Below, in pieces: positions 9,513 through 57,308 of a DNA stretch of 57,308 bases. The notes below the pieces were generated by a model. That model made no database searches. It had not been told where the DNA came from and was given only the letters and a program-made list of their open reading frames with translations. The first letter of the stretch is position 1, and every line of letters starts with the position of its first letter. Source of the DNA: Verrucomicrobiota bacterium (GTDB lineage: Bacteria > Verrucomicrobiota > Verrucomicrobiia > Chthoniobacterales > JAFAMB01). The position numbers and the translations under genes are program-made. The stretch covers positions 1-57,308 of the forward strand of contig JAFBAP010000062.1 of NCBI GenBank assembly GCA_019247695.1. The letters run 5' to 3'.

Positions 9513-9616
9513 GAAGTATTCCGTGCCTCTCGGCTCTGTGTCCTTGAGGGGTGTTCAACGGCGGAATTCCTCTCACCTTTAGGAGAAACGTCACACGACG
9601 ACCGCAGCGGGGGATG

Positions 9617-9789
9617 GCGGGCACAACGTAAGAGTTCACACGGTCACACGGCGGGCACAGCGTAAAAGACTCACACGGCGCCACGGCGGAACACGGCGAC
9701 CACGGCGGAAAGACAGAATCAGCCGCAGAACACGCAGAGAACGCAGAAAGGAGAAAACGTCCACAGATTACACAGATTGACACAGATTA
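9617..9789. repeat. Mosaic intergenic repeat block, order A-B-C
   Basis: Three short-period tracts follow one another. A (9617-9712) is variants of cacggcgaa, including gcacaacgtaagagttcac. B (9713-9759) is variants of cgcagaaca. C (9760-9789) is variants of cacagattga. A second partial B-C copy lies at 9860-9916. The same tracts recur in many intergenic spaces of this window, in either orientation. No open reading frame in this 9513-10047 gap looks genuine. Confidence 0.85.
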
Positions 9790-10047
9790 GGGGGCACACG
9801 ACGGATATAGCGCCTCTCTTACCCGGCACTCGACACTCGACACCCGGCACCTTCATTTTCATCCGCAGACAACGCAGAAAAGAGAAAACGTCCACAGATT
9901 ACGCAAAGTACACAGGCAAGGCGATGGAGGGTCCTACGCCGTTGATCGTGCATGGCCCGGAGACGCAACCGCGGTGTGAATTACGGCTGGTTCATGAATG
10001 AGTCTTAGGCCGTCAGGATGGGTGAATCCTCGCGGGTGGCGAATGTT

Positions 10048-10720: not shown

Positions 10721-10765
10721 GTAATCTGTAAATGTTTTCTGCGTTGTCTGCGTGTTCTGCGGATA
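10721..10765. repeat. Mosaic intergenic repeat, C'-B' fragment
   Basis: A short reverse-orientation copy: a degraded taatctgta tract followed by tctgcgttgtctgcgtgtt. It lies in the 10600-11041 gap between two leftward genes. Apart from this copy I see nothing recognisable in that gap. Confidence 0.7.
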
Positions 10766-12485: not shown

Positions 12486-12535
12486 CAGTCTGTGTAATCT
12501 GTGTAATCTGTGGATGTTTTCTTTCTTTTCTGTGA
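12486..12535. repeat. Mosaic intergenic repeat, C'-B' copy touching the beta-barrel gene stop
   Basis: Two copies of ctgtgtaat are followed by ctgtggatg and a degraded tctttcttttctgtg tract. The copy stops within two bases of the stop codon of the leftward beta-barrel gene. Read outward from that gene, the order is B then C. Confidence 0.75.
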
Positions 12536-21225: not shown

Positions 21226-22028
21226 ATACCATTTCGATGGCCCTGGAGGTAAAATTTTGCCTTCCTTCCCAGATGCCCTGCCAGCGTTACACCTGTTAAA
21301 CCGTAAAAACGGTCTTAGGCTCAACGGGCCGGCAGACCTTAGCCCAGGGTAAACCCCAGTGCCATTTAGTCAGGGGCGAGGGGGGATGCTTTCGTCCCGG
21401 AGGGACGGCTGATGTTAGACAGGGACTTCAGTCCCTGTGAGGCGCATCTAAGAAGGATCGCGTCCCGTCGGCACGCCTGAAACGCTGCACCGGAGGATTC
21501 CGACTCCCAAGGGGCCGGCCAAACCCGGCGCGACCATCAGCACCAAAAAGCCGAACGTCCCCCAACCTTCGACGTCCGCCTGGTTTGGCGCACGCCTTCA
21601 GGCGTCCCGACGGGACGCAATCCCTGGGGGGAACGCCCTCACAGGAACTGAAGTCCCTGCCTAACATCAGCCGTCCCTGCGGGACGAAAGCATTCCCTCC
21701 TCGCCTTTAACTAAATGGCAGTGGGGGTTTACCCTGGGAAGACGTTTCCCCCGCGCCCAGCCCTGAAGGGGCGGTAGCAAGCGTTGCCGGCGGGTTCTGC
21801 CGCCCCTTCAGCAAATCCAACGCGGCGGGGCGGGTGTTTGTTCGGGAGGGCGTACAGGCGTGACCCCTTAGGAGGGCTCATCGTCATTTTACGGCTACCC
21901 AGGGTAAACCCTGAGCTAAGTTCTCCCGGCCCGTTGGGCCTAAGGCCGATTCAACCAAGTACGGAGCATCCTCCGGCGCCGACACCCCCTGAGCCGGCAT
22001 TCTACCGAGATAACCGTCTGAATGGTAT
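21226..22028. mobile_element. Non-coding element with ATACCATT terminal inverted repeats
   Basis: The element starts ATACCATT at 21226-21233 and ends with the exact complement AATGGTAT at 22021-22028. Inside the termini, the segments ending ttagcccagggtaaaccc (about 21310-21355) and starting agggtaaaccctgagctaag (about 21902) are inverted with respect to each other. Between them is a large foldback (21343-21738). No transposase or other coding frame is visible. A shorter relative at 12336-12485 has the same ends without the centre. This pattern fits a MITE-like or other non-autonomous element. Together with flanking DNA it fills the 21050-22303 gap. Confidence 0.68.
21343..21738. repeat. Long imperfect inverted repeat, arms of about 145 bases
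   Basis: The left arm (21343-21488) and right arm (about 21594-21738) are near-perfect reverse complements for their outer 100 bases, sharing atgctttcgtcccg, agggacggctgatgtta and agggacttcagt. They are weaker inward through gcgtcccgtcgg. Each arm also contains small hairpins such as cgtcccggagggacg. Transcribed in either direction, it could fold into a very long stem with a loop of about 105 bases. Confidence 0.85.
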
Positions 22029-39506: not shown

Positions 39507-39570
39507 GAATCTGTGTTAATCTGTGTAATCTGTGGATGGATCTCTGTTCTGCGTAATCTGTGGATCCACT
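39507..39570. repeat. Mosaic intergenic repeat, C' tract
   Basis: Variants of aatctgtgt and ctgtggatg occur twice, separated by a short tctgcg tract. It lies just after the Uma2 duplicate, in the gap before 39676. Confidence 0.75.
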
Positions 39571-39675: not shown

Positions 39676-40074
39676 TTGATGTCAGCCGGTTACGTTCAGG
39701 ATGATTATCCGGTTACGTTCTCCCGGGCTGCGCGGAGGGGCTTGGCACGGCTTAAGCAGTCACTCTCAATCGTTATGAGCGCCGCCCTTTCCGCTTCCAA
39801 CCCGCTGGCCGCCTTCGCTCTTCCCGACCTGCCCCGTCGGTCGCCCCGGACCTCGATCATCCTGGCCGAACTGGCCCGCCAGCGCCGTCAGGAACGCTGT
39901 CGGCGCCGCCAAGTCCGAGCCCGGCGGGCGGCCTGGCTGTTCTGGCTGGACCGGCGGCCGTTTGACTCGGCGCGCGTGCCGCAACAACCCCTGCCCGGGC
40001 TGGTTTTCGCGGGCGGCATGCTGCAGGTCTGCGTCACACCACGGGCACGGCGATTTGGCGGGCACAACGACTGA
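39676..40074 (+). CDS. Small Arg-rich hypothetical protein (doubtful)
   Basis: An open frame of 132 codons with ATG start. The middle part is rich in Arg and Gln (LAELARQRRQERCRRRQVRA) and then RRAAWLFWLDRRPF. The last residues, FGGHND and the stop, are made by a copy of the intergenic repeat. I recognise no family and see no ribosome-binding site. It could be a real lineage-specific gene starting at the ATG at 39775, or a chance frame in GC-rich DNA. Confidence 0.3.
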   Translation: MMSAGYVQDDYPVTFSRAARRGLARLKQSLSIVMSAALSASNPLAAFALPDLPRRSPRTSIILAELARQRRQERCRRRQVRARRAAWLFWLDRRPFDSARVPQQPLPGLVFAGGMLQVCVTPRARRFGGHND

Positions 40075-40400
40075 GTTCACACGGCGAACACGGCGAGCCA
40101 CGGCGACCACGGCGGAAAGAAGAAAGAGTTCGGGGTTCGGAGTGGCATCGTGGGGGGTGGGTGCGAGTGTCGGCCTTAGAGTTACCGCCAGGTCCTCTTA
40201 ATCTGTGTCAATCTGTGTAATCTGTGGATGCTTTCCTCTTTTCTGCGTGTTCTGCGGATGATTTAGTCGTTCCGCCGTGTTCGCCGTGGTCGCCGTGTGA
40301 ACTCTTACGTTGTGCCCGCCTTTTCGCTGTGCCCACCGTGTGACCGTGTGAACTCTTACGCTGTGCCCGCCACACCCGCCGTGCCCGTGGTGTGCCCGAC
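40046..40400. repeat. Mosaic intergenic repeat block, palindromic order A-E-C'-B'-A'
   Basis: An A tract (cacggcgaa type, to about 40125) is followed by E (agttcggggttcggag), then C' (40198-40228), B' (tctgcgtgttctgcggatg) and a long A' tract (ttcgccgtggtcgccgtgtg, repeated to about 40390). The two A tracts are in opposite orientation, so the block can fold back on itself. Confidence 0.85.
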
Positions 40401-40538
40401 ACCTCCCGATCATTCCCACCGAGCGATTTAGTCGCCGGCTGACCTCAACCGCCGCTCCGGGGCAAAGACCGGCTCAGCCGCCTTGAAATCCGGTATCGCG
40501 CGACTTGCACCGGATGATATCAATGCTATCATTGGTCA

Positions 40539-41206: not shown

Positions 41207-41320
41207 ATCCGCAGAACACGCAGACGGGTCGCGGCGCGTGCCGGTGGATGCGTGCGACGCTACATGACCGTAATCTGTGTCAATCTGTGGATGATCTCTT
41301 TTCTGCGTTGTCTGCGAGTT
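41207..41320. repeat. Mosaic intergenic repeat, B then C'-B'
   Basis: A B tract (cgcagaacacgcagac) directly after the FitB gene faces a C'-B' tract (aatctgtgtcaatctgtgga, then tctgcgttgtctgcg) across about 40 bases. The gap 41192-41515 is otherwise without recognisable features. Confidence 0.75.
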
Positions 41321-45260: not shown

Positions 45261-45452
45261 CACACGGCGGGCACAACGTAAGAGTTCACACGGCGAACAC
45301 GGCGGAAAGACAGAATCATTCGCAGAACACGCAGAGAACGCAGAAAAAGAATCCCAAACGCTGGACCTGACAGCGGCAGCCGGCACCCATGCTGCCGCTC
45401 CGAACTCCGACCGACACCCGCTATTCGTTACCCGTTACCCGTTACCCGCCAC
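45261..45452. repeat. Mosaic intergenic repeat block, A-B-D
   Basis: The A tract begins directly at the stop codon of the binding-protein gene (tgacacacggcgggcacaac). B (cgcagaacacgcagagaacg) follows, and then a D tract of cgttaccc repeats ends near 45452. The 45261-45549 gap also contains a terminator. Confidence 0.85.
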
Positions 45453-45481
45453 TCTCTTCCATTTGTGGCATTTAAATAGAG

Positions 45482-46539: not shown

Positions 46540-46669
46540 AATACCTTGATTCCACTTGCTGGTGGTGAAGCGTTAGTAAAGCTTCGCCAACGCGGCTGGC
46601 GACGGCCTTATCCCATTTACGATTCTCAAGGCGGCAACATTGCGACGCAAAACGGGAGGGTTCCGTCAC

Positions 46670-47032
46670 ACGGCGGGCGCAGCGGGTTGGGCGGGCACAA
46701 CGTAAGAGTTCACACGGCGAACACGGCGGACCACGGCGGGAAGAGGGGGAAGGGGAAAGAGTTCGGCGTTCGGAGTGGCATCATGGGTGCGAGATGCCCA
46801 TGTCAAGCTCCGGTTTCGTGGATTCTTTTTCTGCGTTCGTCTGCGTGTTCTGCGGATGATTCCGTCTTCCCGCCGTGTTCCGCCGAAAGATTGGATCCAG
46901 TCATAGGACGTCTCCGAGCTCCGAACCCCGAACGCCGAACTCCGAACTCTCTCCCCTCTTCCCTCTTCCCGCCGTGGTCGTCGTGTTCCGCCGTGTTCGC
47001 CGTGTGAACTCTTACGTCGTGGCCGCCGTGTG
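46670..47032. repeat. Mosaic intergenic repeat block with opposed A tracts
   Basis: Order A (46671-46741), E (agttcggcgttcggagtggc), B' (tctgcgttcgtctgcgtgtt), short A', E' (ctccgaactctc type), long A' to 47032. The outer A and A' tracts are reverse complements. The right edge runs into the coding end of the leftward flavoprotein gene and supplies its stop codon. Confidence 0.85.
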
Positions 47033-50942: not shown

Positions 50943-51291
50943 TGTCGGGTAGAGCTCGGAGTTCGGAGTTCGGGGTTCGGAGTTCGGAGCGGAAGAGAAT
51001 GCCACAAATGCCACAAGCGGAAAAATGCCACAAATGGAAGAGAGTGTCGGGTGTCGGCCACGAGCTTGGGGAAGAGTCGCCGATGTCAACTCTGTAACTC
51101 TTCTTCCCGCCGTGGTCGCCGTGTTCCGCCGTGGCGCCGTGTGATCCTCTTCCGCTGTGCCCGCCGTGTGCCCTTAATCTGTGTAATCTGTGGATGTTTT
51201 TTCTTTTCTGCGTTCTCTGCGTGTTCTGCGGATGATTTATTTAATCTGTGGACCCGCCGTGTGATGAACCCGTTACCCGTTACCCGCTACG
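50943..51291. repeat. Mosaic intergenic repeat block, E-A'-C'-B'-D'
   Basis: E (gttcggagttcggggttcgg) is followed by ccacaaatg repeats (about 51001-51040), A' (cgccgtggtcgccgtgttcc), C' (ctgtgtaatctgtggatg), B' (tctgcgttctctgcgtgttc) and a D tract (cccgttacccgttacccgct). The D tract ends exactly at the stop codon of the leftward AraC-type gene. Confidence 0.85.
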
Positions 51292-56939: not shown

Positions 56940-57308
56940 CACGGCCGGGAAAGTTCGGAGTTCGGGGTTCGGGGTTCGGAGACACGGCGGGCACAGCGGG
57001 TCAGGCGGGCACAACGACAGAGGTTCACACGGCGAACACGGCGAGCCACGGCGAACACGGCGAGAAGATTAAATCATCCGCAGAACACGCAGAGAACGCA
57101 GAAAAGGGAAAACATCCACAGATTACACAGATTGACACAGATTACGGGGACCCGGCGGCAACTCCAAGGTTGACACTCGCACCTAACCCCCATGCTGCCG
57201 CTCCGAACTCCGAACTCCGAACTCCGAACTCCGAACTCCTCTTCCTCTTCCGCCGTGGTCGCCGTGGCTCGCCGTGTTCGCCGTGTGAACTCTTACGTGG
57301 TGCCCGCC
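56940..57308. repeat. Mosaic intergenic repeat block, order E-A-B-C then E'-A'
   Basis: E (gttcggagttcggggttcgg), A (cacggcgaacacggcgagcc), B (cgcagaacacgcagagaacg) and C (ccacagattacacagattga) follow the GH4 gene. After a 40-base centre come E' (ctccgaactccgaactccga) and A' (gccgtggctcgccgtgttcg), running past the window edge. It is the clearest palindromic example of the series. No gene lies in this gap. Confidence 0.87.

Follow-up and report, generated by a model that had tools for sequence, protein, structure and literature searches.

Nested palindromic repeat units at gene ends of a Verrucomicrobiota genome and the arms around GxxExxY genes

The DNA analysed here, a stretch of 57,308 nucleotides (the window), holds spacers built from tandem tracts of several unrelated short motifs. 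The question raised by this locus is why different motifs should share one order and polarity from spacer to spacer. The window is contig C62 of the Verrucomicrobiota genome G000 (5.19 Mb, 191 contigs). Eleven modules were defined from the commonest 12-mers in 1.2 Mb of G000, which also served as the sample for the arrangement described below, and mapping of the modules over this sample gave 226 blocks. A prime denotes a module on the minus strand. Gene calls in G000 come from a home-made hexamer caller, and G001 (MAG CP_BM_RX_22) was used as a congener for comparison. Many contigs of G000 (e.g. C1, C5, C17, C21, C53, C55, C106, C128 and the window itself) end within the repeats described below, at which the assembly breaks, so that repeat copy numbers are lower bounds.

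Nested units in the window and the genome

In the window, 75 matches to the 11 module consensuses were obtained against 1.45 expected from mononucleotide-shuffled copies, modules A and a overlapping in this count. The tracts noticed by the sequence-only reading were therefore borne out at their places. They make up six large blocks and four or five single tracts, so its figure of at least ten spacers was fair, while the period of 8 that it gave for E is corrected to 7 (CTCCGAA). The A, B, and C arms are arrays of three to four iterons (CRCNRAN) with a period of 9-10; judging by its motif, H is probably an inverted array of 9-10 bp iterons too. The features are as follows, blocks being unstranded.

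56950..57304, block E' A A B C E A' A' G', flanked by a stop codon and the end of the contig; RNA fold z -7.1
57028..57062, plus, A iterons CACGGCGAA, left arm of a T (J-G-A-Z) unit; the same arm as beside the GxxExxY gene at G000:C29
57078..57094, plus, B iterons CGCAGAACA; B arms also stand beside the GxxExxY gene at G000:C25
57117..57144, plus, C iterons (CACAGATTA/GA); C-type arms also stand beside a GxxExxY gene in genome G027
57201..57239, plus, E heptamers (CTCCGAA)n
57251..57304, minus, A' and G', right arm of the T unit
50951..51286, block E' H I' Z' A' J' C' B' D
46664..47030, block J G A Z E' B' E Z' A' G', a near-complete nested palindrome with two arms; RNA fold -221.9 kcal/mol, z -11.3
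45270..45472, block G A B E D H', with a stop codon immediately before it
40046..40368, block G A E' C' B' A' G' J' G'; RNA fold z -6.5
9616..9882, block G J A B C I B
41209..41225, plus, single B tract
39518..39534, minus, single C' tract
12487..12512, minus, single C' tract
10746..10762, minus, single B' tract

Related CCGCTCCGGGGCAAAGACCGGC sequence lies beyond the blocks at 40440-40500. A search of the window with Rfam gave no gathering-score match inside the blocks; the sole match, to the Acido-Lenti-1 RNA (RF01687), lies outside them at 21393-21438 on the minus strand. Across the whole of G000 the C tract occurs 140 times and its reversed pattern not once.

The blocks are stacks of nested palindromic repeat units, each with two arms. 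Left-type arms (H, J, G, A, and Z on the plus strand; D, E, and I on the minus strand) preceded right-type arms in 1512 of 1513 pairs from 96 spacers of the 1.2 Mb sample, where permutation or shuffling predicts about half; this polarity was assigned from the same G000 data that it describes. A held-out check on nine loci (151 pairs) gave one exception, and the congener (59 pairs) gave two. Tracts in random order and mainly on their own, the outcome that would have spoken against the sequence-only reading, were thus not what was found. Wherever one spacer of G000 held two complete units, these were nested or overlapping (19 of 19) and never side by side. From outside to inside, the preferred succession is H-D-I-J-G-A-Z-E, E being found outside as well. 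The shared order accordingly comes from a small number of palindrome types nesting in one another and not from one element. Regarding the fixed A-B-C order that had been proposed, the B-C part holds for order and polarity in G000 (57 versus 2 in the sample, 126 versus 2 across the whole genome), but A does not belong to it, being a palindromic arm that stands on either side (A..BC versus A..C'B', 30:30). Beyond G000, the C-to-B order is also present in 10 of 38 genomes, so even the B-C order is not universal.

A propagating composite element had also been suggested. The 91 multi-unit blocks display 78 different architectures, 69 of them found once, which argues against a single composite. Propagation itself is supported by the linkers at unit junctions, which are identical in many blocks, by the amplification of J, G, Z, and E in G000 and not in the congener, and by the match of the arms to the flanks of GxxExxY genes. 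At four sites of G000, T arms surround an alternative core, whose own palindrome GCCGTCTTTGCCCCGGAGCGGCGG replaces E and B/C:

C53:31765-31932, alternative-core T unit
C84:5175-5352, alternative-core T unit
C116:23501-23689, alternative-core T unit
C44:13461-13639, alternative-core T unit

The congener is 81-90% identical to G000 and its spacers have turned over, orthologous spacers of the two genomes holding different blocks. The densities of H, D, B, and C are closer to those of G000; J, G, Z, and E, by contrast, are scarce there: G occurs twice in 463 kb, compared with 126 times in 1.2 Mb of G000. Since the G001 spacers are too diverged from those of G000, neither a target-site duplication nor a base-resolved insertion was seen, and a clean empty site sought in Segatella relatives was not obtained. 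One G001 spacer (L111, 7260-7350) contains a near-perfect GC-rich hairpin, GCTTGCGTCGCCCCCCCAATCG...CGATTGGGGGGGCGACGCAAGC, which its G000 orthologue lacks; this would be a young insertion of a single hairpin.

Placement at gene ends and distribution

The units fill the 3' ends of genes. Module density in G000 is 63 times higher in non-coding than in coding DNA. Of convergent spacers of 200-450 bp, 26 of 39 (67%) were occupied, compared with 5 of 54 divergent spacers, and the median distance of a block was 11 nt to stop codons and 58 to starts. A preference for the vicinity of stop codons and for convergent spacers is shared by REPs, which are also intergenic and palindromic (PMC3733652).

Across GTDB species, the B-C pair was found in Bacteroidota, Hydrogenedentota, Cloacimonadota, Acidobacteriota (Holophagaceae), Planctomycetota, Chloroflexota, Sumerlaeota, Spirochaetota, and Gammaproteobacteria. 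Outside G000 such pairs often form nested palindromes of the same polarity, plus then minus in 34 cases and minus then plus in 5. The E heptamer was dropped as a motif common to several phyla, being nearly confined to G000. Carriage by phages or plasmids was likewise rejected: B-C and C-B patterns numbered 0 in viral contigs, and plasmids yielded a single 35-bp match and no block. E. coli gave no match.

GxxExxY genes between the same arms

Two genes of the GxxExxY family are present in G000, and both lie inside arms of the kind that build the blocks. At the first (L288, G000:C29), the complete 74-bp J-G-A-Z arm stands on both flanks of the gene, aligned end to end. The second (L289, G000:C25) has B on one side and B' on the other, with J' and C' next in line. 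In G027, a relative, the palindrome is of the C type and surrounds a single short gene (L036), which again encodes a GxxExxY protein. Inverted terminal arms, as in MITEs, are therefore common to gene-bearing copies (J-G-A-Z at C29, B at C25) and gene-less blocks. Remnants of the gene were looked for inside the gene-less hairpins of the 1.2 Mb sample, and none were seen. Moreover, GxxExxY units part gene pairs that are adjacent elsewhere: the C-armed unit of G027 lies between metK and ahcY (neighbours named from a reading of the sequence), and a unit in Solimonas lies between sufB and sufC, a pair adjacent without an insert in both G000 and G001.

The link between arms and gene was also observed across many genomes. 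In a set of 57 loci, chosen as the best-scoring GxxExxY gene matches and hence not a random sample, the inverted-repeat score was 41 for a gene's own flanks versus 18 for mismatched flanks. Strict iteron arrays of the correct polarity stood on both sides at 24-26 of the 57 loci versus 0 of 627 control windows, and a motif-free periodicity test was positive on both sides at 37 of 61 loci across phyla versus 8 of 641 controls; about 40% of GxxExxY loci gave no two-sided array. The typical arm is (A)ACC-CRCNRAN with three repeats, the iteron core differing between genomes (CACAGAT, CGCAGAG, CACGAAG, CACCAAG, CGCGAAT). The iteron type of the left arm agrees with that of the right (4.74 of 5, p=5e-5), and gene-flanking arms match the gene-less blocks of their own genome (p=2e-4, 27 genomes; the two sets have one locus in common). 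Three GxxExxY loci on viral contigs, from a separate collection unused in finding the rule, also carry inverted iterons. Two of them (L350 and L353) share an insertion site and have orthologous genes with proteins 72% identical; their iterons differ on both arms together, CGGAATAAA versus AATGAAACG, as if the arms had been rewritten in concert. In the order of the host, 161 of 197 genomes have a GxxExxY gene and 97 of 197 have the CCRCAGATTNCRCAGATT iteron pair (reversed control, 0); the pairs persist in 4 of 20 listed genomes without the gene.

The loop gene is a plain member of the GxxExxY family (TIGR04256/PF13366, PDDEXK_3), which has a PD-(D/E)XK nuclease fold. Three loop proteins scored 138, 132, and 132 bits against TIGR04256 (cut-off 35) and 125-130 bits against PF13366 (cut-off 22). 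The G, E, and Y of the name motif are invariant, as are the nuclease D..ExK residues D67, E77, and K79. A structure model built from only three sequences (pLDDT 80.5) matched the Cas4 protein SSO0001 best (Z 9.1), and the archaeal Holliday-junction resolvases Hjc at Z up to 7.9, values below 8 being weak according to the tool. T7 endonuclease I was matched in sequence at E 0.2 only. The likeness of the model to SSO0001 and Hjc makes a nuclease for branched DNA or hairpins plausible. In the papers found to name the family, it is mentioned only in passing, with no link to repeats.

Origin of the units and comparison with known systems

The explanation preferred here, to which a probability of roughly 0.6 is assigned, is that the A, B, and C hairpins derive from a GxxExxY-nuclease element, lack its gene, and insert into hairpins already present at gene ends. 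A complete element would consist of an arm, a GxxExxY gene (~125-140 aa, PD-(D/E)XK nuclease), and an inverted arm; the A (J-G-A-Z), B, and C units would be its terminal arms and the gene-less copies its MITE-like derivatives. We infer that the element is mobile and that hairpins or cruciforms formed by the iteron arms are the site of action of the nuclease, or of host repair once the nuclease has cut. Each new unit would be copied into the centre of a hairpin that already stands at a gene 3' end, which would make the units nest rather than sit side by side. Subsequently, tandem slippage may lengthen the arms, and selection may clear copies from promoters. The E, D, and I heptamers, which form much of the G000 blocks, behave as further units; no source was found for them, nor was any of them found beside a GxxExxY gene. 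The presence of the arms beside GxxExxY genes in many phyla suggests a type of mobile DNA not described before, scattered over the ends of genes. Whether GxxExxY proteins are in general the enzymes of pan-bacterial, undescribed mobile palindromes, each nuclease recognising its own hairpins, spreading gene-less copies, and nesting them at gene ends while the iteron type of both arms changes together, is judged an even bet.

GxxExxY may instead be a passenger or homing-type nuclease gene that entered pre-existing hairpins, the arms being its target and not its ends, with the hairpins spreading by a separate route such as ectopic recombination, slippage, or an unknown transposase. The gene does sit in a hairpin loop, only two genes stand against hundreds of hairpins in G000, iterons occur in some genomes without the gene, and the heptamer units have none. 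This reading is nevertheless unlikely, because the iteron type of a gene's two arms agrees across very different genomes and because, at the one site shared by L350 and L353, both arms changed together around an orthologous gene, which fits arms owned by the element. Plain slippage with ectopic gene conversion among short repeats, with no dedicated enzyme, would suit the widely varying length of heptamer tracts and the recombinant composition of blocks; we consider it highly improbable, as it accounts neither for matched arms flanking one gene family across phyla nor for nesting in 1512 of 1513 pairs. Gene conversion or compensatory evolution within a block was rejected, since the arms of one block are no more alike than arms from different blocks.

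The same comparison of arms bears on a transcribed 3'-end RNA fold under selection (a terminator or mRNA stabiliser), as the sequence-only reading had also entertained. The very stable folds of three window blocks (z -6.5 to -11.3) and the preference for gene 3' ends are in its favour. It is very doubtful all the same: the orientation of the asymmetric core is random to gene direction (20:19), arm mismatches have no G-U excess (30 G-U versus 40 A-C), the arms of one block do not covary, and the architecture is unlike in nearly all spacers. Little credence is also given to the idea that the units are REPIN/RAYT-like or BIME-like palindromes which a Y1 tyrosine (HUH) transposase spreads. Such palindromes behave similarly, being intergenic and favouring convergent spacers and the neighbourhood of stop codons (PMC3733652), and G000 does have a RAYT-like gene; however, one of its two Y1 loci (L214, L215) is an IS605-type pair and the other is bounded by a different palindrome (CCCTGAAGGGGC, CCCAGGGT). 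No block modules were matched at either locus, and RAYT was rejected as the driver. REPs and REPINs are defined by a GTAG or CGTC tag at one stem end (PMC3733652), whereas the arms here have neither tag and begin (A/T)CC, followed by iterons.

The nuclease element favoured above thus resembles REPIN/RAYT, REP, and BIME systems in its intergenic palindromes, present in hundreds of copies near stop codons in mosaic arrangements, and REPIN/RAYT in having a dedicated nuclease-type gene between copies of its palindrome. It differs in that a PD-(D/E)XK protein takes the place of the Y1 HUH transposase, in its tagless arrays of 9-10 bp iterons with arms of ~30-74 bp, and in the nesting of units in one another. 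Bacterial MITEs (Correia/NEMIS, RUP, BOX, YPAL) are likewise short non-coding units with terminal inverted repeats, and YPAL targets sites in or beside dyad symmetry (PMC2229807). Here, in contrast, there is no known parent transposase, the candidate parent carrying a GxxExxY nuclease, and target duplications were not seen, the congener spacers being too diverged. A literal-motif search of the open-access literature returned no earlier description; one elsewhere is possible. Heptanucleotide STRR repeats occur in cyanobacteria. By description, D, E, and I are similar as tandem heptamers between genes, but here they form inverted arms within nested palindromes.

If correct, the proposed element would provide a widespread nuclease family with a function and a biological context and account for intergenic repeats of one class that occur in many phyla. 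It would also be a further mobile-palindrome system, with a restriction-fold nuclease where REPINs employ a Y1 transposase. The arm-gene rule is easy to test in any genome collection. A separate, second repeat family was also observed in G000, at L215 (G000:C153:14742-15080), where the RAYT-like Y1 gene lies with palindromes of its own, CCCTGAAGGGGC and CCCAGGGT...ACCCTGGG.
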